From: Kocuria sp.
GTDB taxonomy: Bacteria; Actinomycetota; Actinomycetes; Actinomycetales; Micrococcaceae
Reading direction: 5' to 3'
Length of the DNA stretch: 64,000 nucleotides
Assembly (NCBI GenBank): GCA_030524035.1
Contig: JAUNHG010000001.1
Location: 465,250 to 529,249, forward strand
Below, piece by piece: positions 6,338 to 13,705 of the stretch. Each line of letters starts with the position of its first letter. The first letter of the stretch is position 1. The notes beneath the pieces were generated by a model, which had not been told where the DNA came from, did not search any database, and saw nothing but the letters and a program-made list of their open reading frames with translations. A program made the position numbers and the translations under genes.

Positions 6338-6766
6338 ATGGCTCCCAAGAAGAAGGTCTCTGGCCTGATTAAGCTGCAGATTCAGGCTGGTGCCGCTAAC
6401 CCGGCTCCGCCCGTTGGCCCCGCGCTCGGTGCGCAAGGCGTCAACATTATGGAGTTCTGCAAGGCTTACAACGCTGCCACTGAATCCCAGCGTGGCAACA
6501 TCATCCCGGTGGAAATCACGGTCTACGAAGACCGCTCTTTCACCTTCATCACCAAAACTCCGCCTGCTACCCAGCTGATCAAGAAAGCTGCCGGTGTTTC
6601 AAAGGGCTCGGGTGTTCCGCATTCCCAGAAGGTCGGCAAGATCACATGGGATCAGGCGCGTGAGATCGCTACCACGAAGCAGGAAGACCTCAACGCTAAC
6701 GATATAGAGCAGGGTGCCAAGATCATCGCCGGAACAGCCCGTTCCATGGGCATTGAGGTCGAGTGA
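6338..6766 (+). CDS. rplK: 50S ribosomal protein L11
   Basis: L11 binds the GTPase-associated region of 23S rRNA, the target of thiopeptides such as thiostrepton. 142 residues, typical length. The N-terminal domain keeps the proline-rich helix region ([11 protein letters not shown], residues 21-31) where thiostrepton-resistance substitutions arise in other bacteria; it looks wild type. The C-terminal rRNA-binding domain includes [17 protein letters not shown] 6338 follows AAAAGGA. Forms an operon with rplA, and a TsnR-like methyltransferase gene lies 2.2 kb downstream. Confidence 0.98.
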
Positions 6767-6877: not shown

Positions 6878-7582
6878 ATGGCTCAGCGCAGCAAGGCGTA
6901 CAAAGCGGCAGCGGCCAAAATTGAAGAGGGAAAACTCTATAGCCCAGCCGAAGCCGTGGCTCTGGTGAAGGAGATCAACTCATCGAAGGCCGACGCAACC
7001 ATTGAAGTTGCTATGCGTTTGGGTGTTGACCCTCGTAAAGCCGATCAAATGGTCCGTGGCACGGTGAATTTGCCGCACGGGACCGGTAAAACCGCTCGTG
7101 TCGTGGTTTTCGCTCAGGGCGACAAGGCAGCCGCAGCGGAAGCTGCCGGTGCTGATTTCGTGGGTTCGGATGATCTCATTGCCAAGGTTGCCGGTGGCTG
7201 GACTGATTTTGATGCCGCCGTGGCCACACCGGACATGATGGGCAAGGTAGGTCGTCTGGGTAAGGTTTTGGGTCCCCGTAACCTGATGCCAAACCCCAAA
7301 ACTGGCACCGTGACCATGGATGTGACGAAAGCGGTTGAGGATATTAAGGGCGGCAAGATCGACTTCCGTGTTGATAAGCACGCTAACCTCCACTTCATCA
7401 TTGGCAAGTCCTCGTTTGATCAGACAGCTCTGGCCGAGAACTTTGGTGCGGCTCTGGAGGAAGTGCTCCGTCTTAAGCCGACTTCGTCCAAGGGGCGTTA
7501 TGTTGCCAAGATGACGTTGTCTTCCACCTTTGGTCCCGGTGTTCCGGTGGATCCGAATGCCACGGAGGTTTCTGTAGGCTGA
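6878..7582 (+). CDS. rplA: 50S ribosomal protein L1
   Basis: L1-stalk protein that helps deacylated tRNA leave the E site and often represses its own operon. 234 residues, normal length. Contains [22 protein letters not shown] near the N-terminus and [21 protein letters not shown] in domain II (split here only by being quoted in part). ATG 6878 follows AAGGAGAATAAGCAG. A hairpin 36 bases after the stop ends the rplK-rplA unit. Confidence 0.98.
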
Positions 7583-7617
7583 CCTTCCGGGTTGTGGGCA
7601 GATGCCTCGAACATTTC

Positions 7618-7659
7618 CAACAAGCGGTCCCATGATGTAACCATCGGGGCCGCTTGTTG
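7618..7659 (+). terminator. rplA: Hairpin after rplK-rplA
   Basis: Inverted repeat CAACAAGCGGTCCC (7618-7631) and GGGGCCGCTTGTTG (7646-7659): 14 pairs with one G-U and a 14-base loop. Only a weak U-containing tail follows. The position just after rplA fits a transcription terminator, separating the L11-L1 operon from the GNAT gene. Confidence 0.7.
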
Positions 7660-7754
7660 CTGTATAGACAGTGATGTTCGGCGTTCCCTGTTGTCCGGTA
7701 TGTGTGGGCGCTACTGTGGTGAATTCAGGCTGGTTTTCTCCCGAAAGGTCTGCT

Positions 7755-8906
7755 GTGAATGTTCTGCGGCCCGTAGCCATACAACAGGTGCGTATTCCTG
7801 AAGTCTTTGACCGCGAGGCAGCAGGGGTCCTTGAAGAAATCGCTGATCTCGTTCGACGTTCCCGGGCGTCCGTGTGGGGAACAACGGACCTGGCGAATGA
7901 CGCGGAAGGGATCTTTAAAGATCTGCATGACCCCTGGGAGCGGGTGGTGCTCCTGACCGCGCGCACAGATTGCGGATTGGTGGGGCGTGCCGAAGTGCGG
8001 TTGCCACTGATTGTGGAAACACGTAGCGCACATATTTTTCTCACGGTAGATCCTGAACATGAGTCTGAGGGTGTGGGGGCAGATTTACTGGCTGCAGCTG
8101 AGGCGGTTGCTCAGGCAGAAGCTCGTCGTGTGATTGTGATTCACTCGGAACACCCAGGCCCACAAGACATTCAAGGGGACGGGCGGATTGGTTCTGGTAC
8201 TGACATGCTGCCCATTGTTGACCCCGATGCTTGGGTGCGTGCAGCAGACCAGTCGGGGCGTCTACCGGTGTCCAACCGTCAAACACGTTTTGCCGCGCGG
8301 TTTGGGTATGAATTGCAGACGGTGAGCGATGTTAGCCGAATTACGGTTCCCCTTGACGAACAGCAGCGTCGGAGTCTTATGGCAGAAGTAGAAACTTATG
8401 ATGGCGCCGAGAACTACCGGACACACACCTGGGTGGGGTCGTCCCCTGATAACTGGTTAGATTCTTTAGCTCGATTGCATGAACGTATTCCATCGGATTC
8501 GTTTGTTCCGCCGCGACTGTGGGACCCGGAGCCATGGGATCCGGAACGAGCGCGGCGTACGGAGCTGTTGCGGGCGGATAACGGGGATATATCGCTGATG
8601 TCCGTGGTGGAGCATGTACCGTCGGAACAACTCGTGGGTATGACTGAGCTGGTTTTGCCCGGGCCAAAGGCCACCATATGTTTTCAGGACGAAACCGTGG
8701 TGTTACGGGAACACCGGGGGCGTAGGCTGGGGCTGCGGCTCAAGTTAGCTAATTTGGATCTTTTGGCGCTTCAGGCTCCCGGCGTGGAGTCGGTGTATGT
8801 GTGGACCCACAGCGGTAATACCCAGATGAATCGAGTTAATCGGAGTGTGGGGGCAAAAGTCCTGGGCCGTTCTGCCGTGTGGTCCCGGCGTGTTGGACTT
8901 GAGTAA
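7755..8906 (+). CDS. GNAT-fold acetyltransferase-like protein, two lobes
   Basis: 383 residues from GTG 7755, which is preceded by GAAAGG at 7743-7748; the frame runs further upstream but without a ribosome site. Length and two similar halves suggest a tandem GNAT architecture, as in mycothiol-synthase-like proteins. The first half has HIFLTVDPEHESEGVGADL (a V-x-P-E-x-x-x-x-G-x-G acetyl-CoA loop, degenerate) and the second half has VVLREHRGRRLGLRLK (an R-x-x-G-x-G/A-type loop) followed by the late WTHSGNTQMNRVNRSVGA strand-helix. The second lobe looks catalytically competent. The substrate is unknown. The methyltransferase gene follows after 24 bases, so the two are probably cotranscribed. 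Confidence 0.75.
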   Translation: MNVLRPVAIQQVRIPEVFDREAAGVLEEIADLVRRSRASVWGTTDLANDAEGIFKDLHDPWERVVLLTARTDCGLVGRAEVRLPLIVETRSAHIFLTVDPEHESEGVGADLLAAAEAVAQAEARRVIVIHSEHPGPQDIQGDGRIGSGTDMLPIVDPDAWVRAADQSGRLPVSNRQTRFAARFGYELQTVSDVSRITVPLDEQQRRSLMAEVETYDGAENYRTHTWVGSSPDNWLDSLARLHERIPSDSFVPPRLWDPEPWDPERARRTELLRADNGDISLMSVVEHVPSEQLVGMTELVLPGPKATICFQDETVVLREHRGRRLGLRLKLANLDLLALQAPGVESVYVWTHSGNTQMNRVNRSVGAKVLGRSAVWSRRVGLE

Positions 8907-8930
8907 CTATTCCGGTGACAGGAGGACATC

Positions 8931-9749
8931 GTGTCAGGTCCCGCCTTGGTTGGGATGATCGACGACATTCACGACCCCAGAGTGCGTAAAGTCGCTGAAC
9001 TGCTGAAAGGGAAAAACAAACGTTCCCGGGCCATGATCGTGGACGATGAAGAAAACATTGCAGAGGCGATTCGGCAAAGTGTTGCTCTGTTTACCGTTTT
9101 TCTTTCTGAGGGCACCGTTTTGGGGGAGGAGCTCGTGAGTTTGCTTCCCGATGAGGTGGAAATTCACGTGGTTTCTTCGCGGTTGTCCAAGGAGTTATTC
9201 GGGGTTGAGCGCCGTAGTCGGGTTTTTGCTCTCGGAAGGCGTCCGCGCCCATGGACGGTCGCTGAAGTTCTGGATACGCCGGGGGATATCGTGATCCTCG
9301 ACGGCGTGCGTCTGATGGGCAACATTGGAGCGATTACTCGAACAGCTAAGGCTCTGGGGGCATCGGGAATACTGCTTTTGGATAGTGCCGTGGAAAGTCT
9401 GGTGGATCGCCGGCTAGTGCGGGCCAGCCGGGGGCTGGTGTTTTCTATGCCCATGGCCGTGACCGATGCTGCCACGGTGCTTCCCGCGTTGGATGAACGC
9501 AGCATCCGTCTGGTGTCTTTGCACCCACGTGCAACTCAGCAGCTCGCGAGTATTTCTGGGATTCCTGGCAGGATTGCGTTGCTTCTGGGCAGTGAAAAGA
9601 ACGGGCCGTCTGCTGACTTAGCTGAGCATGCTGATACGTCAGTGACTATCGCTATTGATCCCGGGGTGGAATCTTTGAATGTGTCAGTCAGTGCAGCGCT
9701 GGCTTTATATGAGCGATCTCCTAGGGGGCATCGTGTGGCCGGAGTGTGA
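8931..9749 (+). CDS. tsnR: TsnR/NshR-family 23S rRNA 2'-O-methyltransferase (putative thiostrepton resistance)
   Basis: SPOUT (TrmH) methyltransferase of 272 residues. The thiostrepton-resistance enzymes TsnR/Nhr are ~269 residues and methylate A1067 of 23S rRNA, the L11-binding site. Residues 1-105 form the N-terminal RNA-binding lobe. The catalytic lobe shows motif 1 GNIGAITRTAKALGASGI (130-147) with Asn131 and Arg137, then DRRLVRASRGLVFSMP, motif 2 ALLLGSEKNGPS, and motif 3 ESLNVSVSAALALYER. The DRRL-x-RASRG and ESLNVSVS blocks match TsnR as I remember it more closely than RlmB or TrmH. GTG 8931 follows ACAGGAGGACATC. It lies between the L11/L1 and L10/L7-L12 genes. Substrate is inferred, not shown; a housekeeping SpoU-type role is the alternative. 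Confidence 0.75.
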   Translation: MSGPALVGMIDDIHDPRVRKVAELLKGKNKRSRAMIVDDEENIAEAIRQSVALFTVFLSEGTVLGEELVSLLPDEVEIHVVSSRLSKELFGVERRSRVFALGRRPRPWTVAEVLDTPGDIVILDGVRLMGNIGAITRTAKALGASGILLLDSAVESLVDRRLVRASRGLVFSMPMAVTDAATVLPALDERSIRLVSLHPRATQQLASISGIPGRIALLLGSEKNGPSADLAEHADTSVTIAIDPGVESLNVSVSAALALYERSPRGHRVAGV

Positions 9750-9796
9750 ATCCGCCATCAGGTTGTTTCGCTGCACTTGTCCCGATAGAGTAGGCA

Positions 9797-9910
9797 ACAT
9801 CCAAAGACCGTCGGTCGTGGTTTTCTGTGCCCTCAGCACCGTTGTGGGTCCAGAAAACTGCCGTAAGAGCCCGTAAGTGGCGTCCAACGCAGGTGTCCTG
9901 AACGTCATCG
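9797..9910 (+). promoter_or_regulatory. Ribosomal protein L10 leader RNA (rplJ leader)
   Basis: The stretch carries AAAGACCGTCGGTC (9803-9816) and, ~80 bases on, GCGTCCAACGCAGGTGTCCT, both reminiscent of the conserved L10-binding leader of bacterial rplJL operons. It lies 119 bases before the rplJ start. L10-L7/L12 complex bound here would repress translation or transcription of the operon. Assignment rests on motif memory and position; exact ends are approximate. Confidence 0.55.
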
Positions 9911-10028
9911 TTCTTTCTCATGATCCCTTTTGCCATGAGTTTGAATTTTTTGCGCCCTGGCACTTGCCGGGGCGTTTTTTGTGGGCGTTGGAACAGGAAA
10001 CGACCGACCCATGAAGGAAAGGAGTGCC

Positions 10029-10559
10029 ATGGCGAACCCGGAAAAGGCCGCTGCGGTGGCTGAGCTGAAGGAGCAGTTTTCTGCTTCCAAAGCTGCTGTG
10101 CTGACCGAATACCGCGGTCTCTCGGTGGCCCAGCTGAAACAGCTGCGCCGTGCGCTCGGTGAAGAAGCCGAGTACGCCGTGGTGAAGAACACGCTGGCTG
10201 GCATTGCCGCCCAGGAAGCCGGGATTGACGCATTCGAAGGTAAGCTCAGCGGCCCTTCGGCTATTGCGTTTGTTGCCGGTGATCCCGTGGCTGTTGCTAA
10301 GTCCTTGCGTGAATTCGCCAAGGAAAACCCTGAACTGGTTGTCAAAGGCGGCTACATGGATGGTGCTGCCCTTGACGAAGACGGTGTGAAGAAACTTGCG
10401 GATTTGGAATCCCGCGAAGTTCTGTTGGCCAAGGTTGCTGGTGTCGCCCAGGCATCGCTATCGAAGGCTGCTGCACTGTTCCAGGCTCCGCTGTCCAAGA
10501 CCGTTCGTACGACCGAGGCGCTGCGTGCCAAGGTAGAAGAAACCGGCCAGGCAGCCTGA
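10029..10559 (+). CDS. rplJ: 50S ribosomal protein L10
   Basis: Base of the L7/L12 stalk. 176 residues. Starts [17 protein letters not shown] and shows [16 protein letters not shown] and [11 protein letters not shown], typical of the N-terminal rRNA-binding domain. ATG 10029 with AAGGAAAGGAG upstream is chosen over an earlier in-frame GTG at 9981. The C-terminal helices that bind L7/L12 dimers follow. rplL is 94 bases downstream. Confidence 0.97.
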
Positions 10560-10653
10560 CGTTTTACGTCATCACTATTTGCAAGAATCCACATCTGACC
10601 TGCACAGCTACCTTATGGGGTGTGCGAGGTTAAACCCATTGAGGAGTCACAAC

Positions 10654-11046
10654 ATGGCTAAGCTTTCCACTGAAGAACTCATTGACGCTTTCAAGGAACT
10701 GTCTTTGATCGAACTCTCCGAGTTCGTGAAAGCGTTTGAGGAAACCTTTGACGTTACTGCCGCTGCTCCGGCAGCTGTGGCCGTTGCAGGCGCCCCGGCT
10801 GCCGGTGGTGATGGCGGCGGTGCTGCTGAAGAGCAGACCGAGTTCGACGTCATTCTGGAATCTGCCGGCGACAAGAAGATCGGTGTGATTAAGGAAGTGC
10901 GTGCTCTGACCTCCCTCGGCTTGAAGGAAGCCAAGGAACTGGTTGACGGCGCTCCCAAGCCTGTTCTGGAAGGTGCTTCCAAGGAAGATGCCGACAAGGC
11001 CAAGGAACAGCTTGAAGGCGCTGGTGCTACTGTCACTCTTAAGTGA
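10654..11046 (+). CDS. rplL: 50S ribosomal protein L7/L12
   Basis: Multicopy stalk protein that recruits translational GTPases. 130 residues: N-terminal dimerisation domain ([20 protein letters not shown]), an Ala/Gly-rich flexible hinge (residues ~36-57), and the C-terminal factor-binding domain with [23 protein letters not shown] 10654 follows GAGGAGTCACAAC. A long hairpin follows the stop. Confidence 0.98.
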
Positions 11047-11097
11047 TTCATTCACGAGGGGTAACGCATATCTGAGATTGAGTTGAAATAACTCATC

Positions 11098-11150
11098 AAC
11101 ACGACAAGGGGCTCTGAACACACAGTGTGTTCAGAGCCCCTTGTCGTGTT
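11098..11150 (+). terminator. rplL: Strong intrinsic terminator after rplJL
   Basis: A perfect 25-bp stem: arms 11098-11122 and 11126-11150 with the 3-base loop CAG, followed by TGGGTTTTTG. This is the strongest hairpin in the window. The remaining 206 bases to the transporter gene (11151-11356) hold no recognisable gene and presumably its promoter. Confidence 0.9.
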
Positions 11151-11356
11151 TGGGTTTTTGTGTGCTGTCATAGGCATGAACCATGCACGTGAAACTGTCC
11201 ACAGGTGTAATTCAGCTCATGTCATAAAAATGTCACCATGTGAGGCAGTGTTACCGTTTCGGGTGCACAAGTTCGTTATCGTGTTCAGGCGCGAATGTTG
11301 GGGGGAGCAGCGCCATCGAACGATCATGAGGGCTACGATGAGTACTAAGAGGGAAT

Positions 11357-13705
11357 ATGACCGAGTCAACGAATATCGCTACAACAACCTCCGTAACGCA
11401 ACACAGTTTTGGTGAACGTCTTCGCCGGGACCTTCCTGCATCACTCGTCGTTTTTCTCGTAGCGGTTCCTTTGTCGCTGGGTATTGCTGCAGCGTCGGGA
11501 GCTCCGATTGCTGCCGGTTTGATCGCTGCTGCTGTAGGCGGCATTCTTGCCGGAATCTTTGGTGGTGCGCCTTTGCAGGTCAGCGGACCAGCGGCAGGAC
11601 TGACGGTGATTGTTGCTTCTCTGGCTGCTCAGTTCCCTTGGCCAGTTGTGTGTGCCGTAACGTTTGGTGCAGGTTTGCTCCAGCTATTGCTGTCAATTAG
11701 TCGTGTAGCACGCCTGGCATTGGCAATATCTCCCGTGGTTGTCAATGCGATGTTGGCGGGTATTGGCGTCACGATCATCTTGCAACAAATCCAAGTCATG
11801 TTAGGTGGCACTTCCAAATCATCAGCATGGGAGAACGTGTTGTTGCTGCCCAAGCACGTTTCTGGAATGAACCCGCTGGATTTGTTGTGTGGTTTATCGG
11901 TGATTGCACTGATTATGCTTTGGGCCCGTTTACCAGCTTCTGTGCGAAAGGTGCCTGGGCAGCTGGTTGCCATTGTGCTGGTCACAATTGCTTCAGTTCT
12001 TTTCGCCCTGGATGTCACACGTGTTGAGGTCGGGGATTCGATCTTGGATGCGATTGCACTACCGCAGTTACCTGATGGTGAGTGGGGTGCTTTCCTGCTG
12101 GGTGTGTTGACCGTTGGAATCGTGGCGAGCATCGAATCGCTGCTCAGCGCGGTTGCGGTGGATCGGCTCCATGAGGGTAAGAGAACTAATTTTGATCGCG
12201 AACTTTTTGGTCAAGGGGTAGCGAATTCAGCTTCCGGGCTGTTGGGTGGTTTGCCGGTCACCGGTGTGATTGTGCGCAGTTCCACCAACGTGGTGGCTGG
12301 GGCAGTCAGTAATGTGTCGGCGATCATGCACGGTGTGTGGGTCGCTGTGTTTTCTGTGCTCGGTGTTGCCCTGATCGAATCCATTCCCACAGCAGCGCTG
12401 GCTGGTCTTCTGGTGTATACGGGTGCCAAGCTGATTCGCTGGGCGGATATTCATGTTGCAGGTCGCACCGGTGATCTGCTGGTGTACGTGGCCACCATCG
12501 TGGGTGTGGTTGCACTAAACCTGCTTGAAGGTGTCGGTATCGGTGTAGCGCTGTCGATTGTGATTTTGCTGTGGCGTGTGGTGAACGCCAGTGTGCACGC
12601 TGAGGAACTGGGGCCGAATCGCTGGCGTGTGGTTATCGAAGGCACCTGCTCCTTCTTGTCCACACCACGGTTGGTGGGGGTATTGCAGTCAATCCCCGAA
12701 GACGTTGATGTGATCGTTGAATTGGAAGTTGACTACTTAGACCGCCATGCCTTCCAGGCTCTTGAAGATTGGCGGGCGCGTCATCAAGCTCGGGGCCGCC
12801 AAGTGACCATTGAGCAGCACACGCATGATGTGCTGGGTGCACTTGATTCCCAGCCTCCGCGACGTTCCGGGTTGCGTTCTATGGTTTCTGGTGCTTTGGC
12901 GCCTTGGCAGGATCAAGGTCGTGAGCTGCCAACCTTGGACACCGGCTCAATGCATCTGAGCCACCTGTTGCCTGTGTATGCCGGTATTGATCAGTTCCAC
13001 CGGAAGAGGGCAGGCATGGTTAATCAATACCTTGAGCCCCTTGCGTTGACGCAGCGGCCCGAGGCCATGTTCATTACGTGTGCGGATAGCTGTGTGGTGC
13101 CCAGCATGATCACGAATTCAGGTCCGGGCGACTTGTTTACGGTACGCAACGTCGGCAATCTGATTCCCACCTGTCACGCCGGGGAAGGTCACGCTCACCA
13201 TCAGGACGAACAGCACATTCACGGCCAAGGATCGGCGGCAGCCGCGCACGGCGACGCCTCCGTGGAGTCCGCAGTGACTTTTGCCGTGGAGTCGCTGGGG
13301 GTGCAGGCTATCGTGGTGTGTGGGCACTCTGCCTGTGGTGCCATGAGTTCATTGCTGACTGGGATTTCCATACCCGATGACCTGGATGCGTGGCTGGAAT
13401 ATGGCCGAGAGTCTTTGGATACTTTTCGGGCCAATCACCCATTGGTGGCGGAAGCAAAGGCTGCTGGGTACACCGAGGCGGACCAGTTGTCCATCGTTAA
13501 TGTGATGGTGCAGTTGGAGCGGTTACGGCGTCACCCCAGCATTGCTGCTGGGCTGGAAGCGGAGACCCTGAGTATCGCGGGACTGTTCTTCGATGTGAGT
13601 GCTAGCCGGGTTGTAGAGATCACGGCAGATGCTTTGGTCGAGGTGGGCCAAGAACGGATGCCTACTTCCGGTAGGGCACATAAGCGTTCCTTAGCGGGTA
13701 GCTGA
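11357..13705 (+). CDS. SulP-family anion transporter fused to beta-carbonic anhydrase
   Basis: 782 residues in two parts. Residues ~15-415 are a SulP permease with ~12 hydrophobic segments (including GAPLQVSGPAAGLTV and the GLPVTGVIVRSSTNV motif), followed by a STAS-like domain (~420-490). Residues ~540-770 are a beta-carbonic anhydrase: zinc ligands Cys575, His657 and Cys660 (GHSACGAM) are present, but the dyad motif reads CADSC, so the usual Arg is Cys579. A His-rich insert (HAHHQDEQHIHG) lies between the zinc ligands. Such fusions (Mycobacterium Rv3273 type) are thought to couple bicarbonate transport with CO2 hydration. ATG 11357 follows AAGAGGGAAT. Membrane protein with a cytoplasmic enzyme domain. 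Confidence 0.9.
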   Translation: MTESTNIATTTSVTQHSFGERLRRDLPASLVVFLVAVPLSLGIAAASGAPIAAGLIAAAVGGILAGIFGGAPLQVSGPAAGLTVIVASLAAQFPWPVVCAVTFGAGLLQLLLSISRVARLALAISPVVVNAMLAGIGVTIILQQIQVMLGGTSKSSAWENVLLLPKHVSGMNPLDLLCGLSVIALIMLWARLPASVRKVPGQLVAIVLVTIASVLFALDVTRVEVGDSILDAIALPQLPDGEWGAFLLGVLTVGIVASIESLLSAVAVDRLHEGKRTNFDRELFGQGVANSASGLLGGLPVTGVIVRSSTNVVAGAVSNVSAIMHGVWVAVFSVLGVALIESIPTAALAGLLVYTGAKLIRWADIHVAGRTGDLLVYVATIVGVVALNLLEGVGIGVALSIVILLWRVVNASVHAEELGPNRWRVVIEGTCSFLSTPRLVGVLQSIPEDVDVIVELEVDYLDRHAFQALEDWRARHQARGRQVTIEQHTHDVLGALDSQPPRRSGLRSMVSGALAPWQDQGRELPTLDTGSMHLSHLLPVYAGIDQFHRKRAGMVNQYLEPLALTQRPEAMFITCADSCVVPSMITNSGPGDLFTVRNVGNLIPTCHAGEGHAHHQDEQHIHGQGSAAAAHGDASVESAVTFAVESLGVQAIVVCGHSACGAMSSLLTGISIPDDLDAWLEYGRESLDTFRANHPLVAEAKAAGYTEADQLSIVNVMVQLERLRRHPSIAAGLEAETLSIAGLFFDVSASRVVEITADALVEVGQERMPTSGRAHKRSLAGS

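Follow-up and report, generated by a model that had tools for sequence, protein, structure and literature searches.

What is a gene resembling the thiostrepton-resistance methyltransferases of Streptomyces doing among the ribosomal protein genes of a Kocuria strain, and how did it get there? The gene lies in the 64,000-nucleotide stretch of DNA that we analyzed (the window), where the first-pass annotation had placed an open reading frame at 8931-9749 between the L11/L1 and L10/L7-L12 genes and had pointed out two TsnR-type motifs in its product. The frame proved to be real. It is complete on the forward strand, starts with GTG and encodes 272 residues; its neighbors by Pfam are NusG, L11, L1, a GNAT acetyltransferase, L10, and L7/L12; and both motifs are present in the translation (DRRL-V-RASRG, announced as DRRL-x-RASRG, and ESLNVSVS). 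The L11 gene ends at 6766, 2.2 kb upstream as had been stated, and its product, described as wild-type-looking, is indeed ordinary, scoring above the NCBIfam cut-off and sharing 94–97% identity with L11 of the four nearest sister species. Two details were absent from that annotation: the GNAT gene between L1 and the TsnR-like gene, which ends 24 bp ahead of the latter, and the 279-bp stretch, including the rplJL leader, that separates the TsnR-like gene from L10 (Table 1).

Table 1. Features at and around the TsnR-like gene, in window coordinates.
Feature	Position	Strand	Remark	Basis
Ribosomal protein L11 (rplK)	6338..6766	+		Pfam, NCBIfam, sister comparison
Ribosomal protein L1 (rplA)	6878..7582	+		Pfam
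GNAT acetyltransferase gene	7671..8906	+	start codon uncertain	Pfam, synteny
Shine-Dalgarno-like AGGAGG	8920..8925	+	5 nt ahead of GTG start	sequence
TsnR-like gene, predicted SpoU-class rRNA 2'-O-methyltransferase	8931..9749	+	272 aa	ORF list, Pfam, tree, residues
Conserved block near rplJL leader start	9798..9820	+	CATCCAAAGACCGTCGGTCGTGG	junction alignment
Terminator/attenuator-like hairpin with T run in rplJL leader	9952..9975	+		alignment, promoter/terminator scan
Ribosomal protein L10 (rplJ)	10029..10559	+		Pfam
Ribosomal protein L7/L12 (rplL)	10654..11046	+		Pfam

In Pfam the protein matches TSNR_N at residues 9–112 (E 1.3e-17, 64.3 bits against a cut-off of 28.3) and SpoU_methylase at residues 120–260 (E 6.8e-29, 101.2 bits against a cut-off of 29.7). 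Because both domains exceed their cut-offs at these E-values, a chance match is excluded. The closest solved structures are NshR (3nk6; 6e-51, residues 9–269) and Tsr (3gyq; 1.6e-48), matched over nearly the full length, and the next SpoU structure follows at 1.2e-20. NshR is also far closer than the AviRb entry 1x7o, which matches at 1e-06 over residues 122–262 only; we took this entry as AviRb via 1X7P in an excerpt of PMC9508554 and a shared PDB row. The best library model is NCBIfam NF000477 (NshR/TsnR), at 222 bits and below its cut-off of 425, and the RlmB model TIGR00186 scores 86.4 bits, likewise below its cut-off of 160.15.

The first-pass annotation had proposed, among other checks, a phylogeny against TsnR, NshR, RlmB, and other SpoU families. 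Our tree has 60 rows, namely 57 locus proteins minus the fragment L004, together with the window protein and three PDB stretches, and does not contain AviRb. It places the window protein with TsnR and NshR, inside a TsnR clade of 36 rows (support 100/98) and apart from the other 24 rows. The latter belong to other SpoU types and include four paralogues from the window's own genome (L001, L002, L003, and L006) and five sub-cut-off TSNR_N matches from the order-wide search. Within the clade, the window protein pairs with that of genome G254 (99/94; 69% identity), and the two then join the proteins of four g14 genomes (99/96; 59–61% identity to the window protein). A second group holds seven rows (99/94), a third holds 22, including NshR, Tsr, and seven Streptomyces proteins (96/93), and L007 forms a long branch of its own; the 60-row tree does not resolve the branching order among these groups. 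Tree and scores support a TsnR-type protein, not RlmB or another housekeeping SpoU enzyme. Judged in the same way, the protein belongs to a separate TsnR subclade under the NCBI NshR/TsnR cut-off, at about 37% identity to classical TsnR/Tsr.

Two TsnR-type genes turned up in odd settings. One (L007:2693-3472) comes from a metagenome-assembled genome that bears the title Borreliella garinii isolate SulCav, an unusual host that is possibly mislabelled. The other (L116:2968-3777) is an NshR/TsnR gene on a 5.2-kb plasmid of Pseudomonas sp. SK2, with a tree distance of zero to Tsr (3gyq), and is possibly vector-derived.

Equivalents of NHR Asn129, Arg135, Glu220, Ser246, and Asn248 are common to all 60 rows, including the window protein. 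Six further residues are diagnostic of the clade: Asp36, Phe88, Phe97, Asp117, Asp157, and Arg165 occur in 33–36 of the 36 TsnR-clade rows versus 0–1 of the 24 others, and the window protein has all six. At one position, where 34 of the 36 clade rows keep a glycine, it has Ser50. We presume that residues other than Arg135 also matter for function. Arg137 of the window protein is the equivalent of NHR Arg135, in a numbering that places the conserved arginine of 3nk6 at 135. NHR activity is reported to be lost when Arg135 is mutated (excerpt of PMC4409310).

The window protein thus shares its TSNR_N and SpoU domains, these residues, and its length with Tsr/TsnR of S. azureus and S. laurentii and with NshR of S. 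actuosus, the 2'-O-methyltransferases of 23S A1067. It differs from them in its low identity, its own subclade, and its score under the NCBI cut-off. With RlmB and other housekeeping SpoU enzymes it shares the SpoU catalytic domain, whereas the clade-diagnostic residues are absent in the rows compared and the tree keeps the two sets apart. The paralogue L002, we presume, may be the counterpart of M. tuberculosis tsnR. That gene shares its name with the TsnR family, its annotation is that of a putative 23S rRNA methyltransferase, and its loss of function is reported to accompany linezolid resistance (excerpt of PMC10303974).

TSNR_N was matched in 6 of 197 family genomes and 26 of 396 order genomes, the window's own genome counted in both, with 21 of the 26 over the cut-off. 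No match was found in the 12 other same-genus genomes listed. We located L10 in 26 of the 27 genus genomes, and in the 25 other than the window's own no TsnR-like match lies within 1.5 kb on either side of it. Eight of 12 longer same-genus stretches read NusG-L11-L1-GNAT-L10-L7/L12 without a TsnR-like gene; the remaining four contain the L10-L7/L12 pair but gave no match to L11 or L1, and their GNAT gene is roughly 6–7 kb away. When the joined flanks of the window gene were aligned with six sister species, the GNAT-L10 site was empty in all six (for G567, G569, and G561 the check covered this locus alone). Because both the end of GNAT and the rplJL leader are conserved in this alignment, the TsnR-like gene can be placed between them.

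An ancestral resident of the rplA-rplJ interval is ruled out, since sister species lack the gene. Intrinsic thiopeptide resistance or a constitutive rRNA modification, as had been suggested, is likewise not a trait of the genus, given that the same-genus genomes examined are without the gene; ‘lineage-specific, acquired’ is the better description. While the position of the gene comes from comparison, we infer that one lineage of the genus acquired it horizontally. The composition evidence on this point is mixed. The GC content of the gene (55.9%, window 56.6%) does not stand out, and its GC and GC3 are near those of its neighbors. Its codon-usage score of 0.641, computed with the gene itself left out of the reference set, is the lowest among 23 genes scored, by a small margin over GNAT at 0.653, and is a weak hint of foreign origin.

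As candidate mobile-element borders we considered four short direct-repeat families, the widest-spaced being 11 nt at 91%, and found them not convincing. Plasmid searches returned 61 records and phage searches 37, none of which reached 60% identity; among the matches listed, none exceeded about 37%. A scan of genome contigs gave one relative only. Among the papers listed by the literature searches, none deals with the gene or its subclade, judged by titles and abstract openings. The enzyme family is known; the new details are its carrier and its genomic place. Farther along the cluster, between L7/L12 and RpoB, we observed a gene with sulfate-permease and carbonic-anhydrase domains (11357-13705). 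No match to it was found in the same-genus stretches compared, so that it appears to be another lineage-specific insertion into this ribosomal cluster.

The end of the insert lies upstream of the conserved block near the leader start, which all six sister species have, with two C-for-T changes in two of them. The leader itself (9798-9975) carries strongly conserved blocks in the six sisters and a terminator-like hairpin at its end; against Rfam, it gave three matches, all below gathering scores. No promoter-like (sigma-70-like) site was found between 7500 and 11300, a result that says little because 1.3 sites are expected by chance. Since the gene follows GNAT so closely and ends upstream of the leader, co-transcription with GNAT and intact control of L10 is the simplest reading. 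The TsnR-like gene is probably read together with the GNAT gene, with the L10 attenuator undisturbed.

A Streptomyces tsnR within a ribosomal protein cluster had been named as a precedent. This stands insofar as excerpts of two reviews (PMC6449301; PMC6804068), which cite a 1995 Gene paper, report that S. laurentii tsnR lies in the midst of ribosomal-protein operons. The slot, however, differs: S. laurentii tsr adjoins the EF-Tu gene, which rules out a shared slot (PMC4891635). We compared 342 window ORFs with 55 locus records around 33 other TsnR-type genes of the tree. Ribosomal genes lay near two of the 33, in Streptomyces G1274 and G989, where TsnR is 5.0 and 7.5 kb from S10 and the neighborhood also has Lant_dehydr_N, Lant_dehydr_C, and YcaO genes. 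This count is a lower bound, as the flanks of some loci extend about 1.5 kb or less per side. L11, L1, L10, and L7/L12 had no match in the available flanks of the 33 genes, and queries with EF-Tu, EF-G, and S7 had none in the fetched loci.

The window gene therefore sits in an L1-L10 slot, S. laurentii tsr beside EF-Tu, and two Streptomyces TsnR genes near the S10 operon. The genes of G254 and the four g14 genomes belong to the same supported subclade as the window gene but have no ribosomal protein gene of the window's set found nearby. In two Streptomyces genomes (L128 and L130), TsnR, dehydratase-domain, and YcaO genes occupy one 19-kb stretch together with the S10 operon.

As far as is known, thiopeptide pathways require YcaO. 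The window's own genome, given as 99.75% complete, has no YcaO match and so is without a recognizable thiopeptide pathway, in which it differs from the carriers of Tsr, TsnR, and NshR; as far as YcaO shows, the strain is the non-producer that it had been taken to be. We tested 23 genomes, comprising 22 of the 31 tree carriers and the sister G036, which lacks the gene. YcaO was matched in 12 (G254, G147, G337, G259, G225, and seven Streptomyces carriers, which are all seven Streptomyces TsnR carriers found) and was absent from 10 of the 22 carriers, namely the four g14 genomes and six others, and from G036.

Four YcaO matches were obtained in G254, the nearest relative, and two of these are separated by about 10.6 kb. 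Unlike the window's own genome, G254 contains a thiopeptide-type cluster (L143:3563-18086). This cluster encodes two YcaO proteins, above the Pfam cut-off and below the NCBI SagD cut-off, proteins with Lant_dehydr_N and Lant_dehydr_C, a thiopeptide-type protein (TIGR03891) and a SagB-type dehydrogenase that each exceed the respective cut-off, an ABC transporter pair, and a precursor-like peptide rich in Ser and Cys. On a 2.96-Mb contig, about 1.5 Mb separates the cluster from the G254 TsnR-like gene, and the link between the two is therefore circumstantial. In G147 (L144), which has two YcaO matches, we observed ORFs similar in size and order to the G254 cluster, one of them scanned.

We consider it likely, from the sequence, that the window gene encodes an acquired A1067 2'-O-methyltransferase of the TsnR clade that protects a non-producer from thiopeptides. 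Clade, architecture, and residues suggest a SPOUT-class enzyme, presumably a dimer, that would use SAM to methylate the 2'-OH of A1067, a nucleotide at the tip of 23S helix 43 in the binding site of L11. This methylation would block binding of thiopeptides of the thiostrepton and nosiheptide class. TsnR reshapes the helix 43 region with its L30e-like N-terminal domain and methylates the A1067 2'-OH as a SPOUT dimer (excerpt of PMC9508554); by analogy, the window protein may work in the same way.

The gene would have reached one lineage of the genus by horizontal transfer, compact and with its own ribosome-binding site, and come to lie behind the GNAT stop codon and ahead of the rplJL leader, and it would be transcribed with the GNAT gene while leaving the L10 attenuator undisturbed. 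Because its carrier has no YcaO match, the enzyme would shield against thiopeptides made by other bacteria and would not provide producer self-resistance. A search of the window's own assembly for 23S rRNA found none. Six of seven relatives gave 23S matches, 11 in all (G567 gave none). Eight of these copies, representing all six relatives (four from the genus, one from the family, and G254), were read, and every one of the eight keeps the U1066-A1067-G1068 loop (GGCTTAGAAGCAGCC).

Several observations count against the A1067 reading: the score of 222 against 425 bits, the g14 relatives and the 10 of 22 carriers without YcaO, Ser50, a GC content that is not distinct, the distance of the G254 cluster, the promoter-like site not found in 7500-11300, and the 23S rRNA not found in the strain's own assembly. 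The distinct subclade, with its modest identity to Tsr and sub-cut-off score, and the carriers lacking YcaO would fit an enzyme of the TsnR clade whose target is different or broader, either another 23S 2'-OH or another RNA, and which has little or no role in thiopeptide resistance. We regard this as unlikely, since the catalytic and clade-diagnostic residues match NHR/Tsr and the patchy distribution is more in keeping with a resistance gene than with a housekeeping modifier.

It is less probable still that the gene is an unexpressed leftover of acquisition with no present function. The empty promoter scan speaks for this, at the small weight that its chance expectation allows, but the frame is intact and stands with a good ribosome-binding site directly behind GNAT, GC and GC3 are near the neighbors' values, and the active-site residues are kept. 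Very improbable, and refuted at sequence level, is a housekeeping SpoU enzyme, be it RlmB, TrmH, or one of the genome's own paralogues, that merely resembles TsnR. A shared fold, shared motif residues, and a TIGR00186 match of 86 bits are what such an enzyme would offer; the tree nevertheless sets the window protein apart from 24 such rows, the four paralogues among them, the RlmB score stays below 160, and the 12 same-genus genomes listed have no TSNR_N match. Tree and model scores rule this candidate out.

Starting from a protective A1067 methyltransferase, a wider picture can be drawn, which we offer tentatively and think doubtful as a whole. A non-producer would have taken up a thiopeptide-immunity enzyme into its ribosomal-protein locus, where the gene would be expressed along with ribosome synthesis and most 23S rRNA would as a result carry Am1067, and the subclade of this enzyme would circulate among actinobacteria sharing a habitat, protecting them against a thiopeptide of the kind encoded in the genome of the nearest relative. 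With this locus, likely thiopeptide resistance outside producers becomes open to testing, and a TsnR subclade comes to light whose member here falls below the NCBI family cut-off. The locus also shows that the window gene and the Streptomyces tsr-type genes came to lie among ribosomal-protein genes at different sites.
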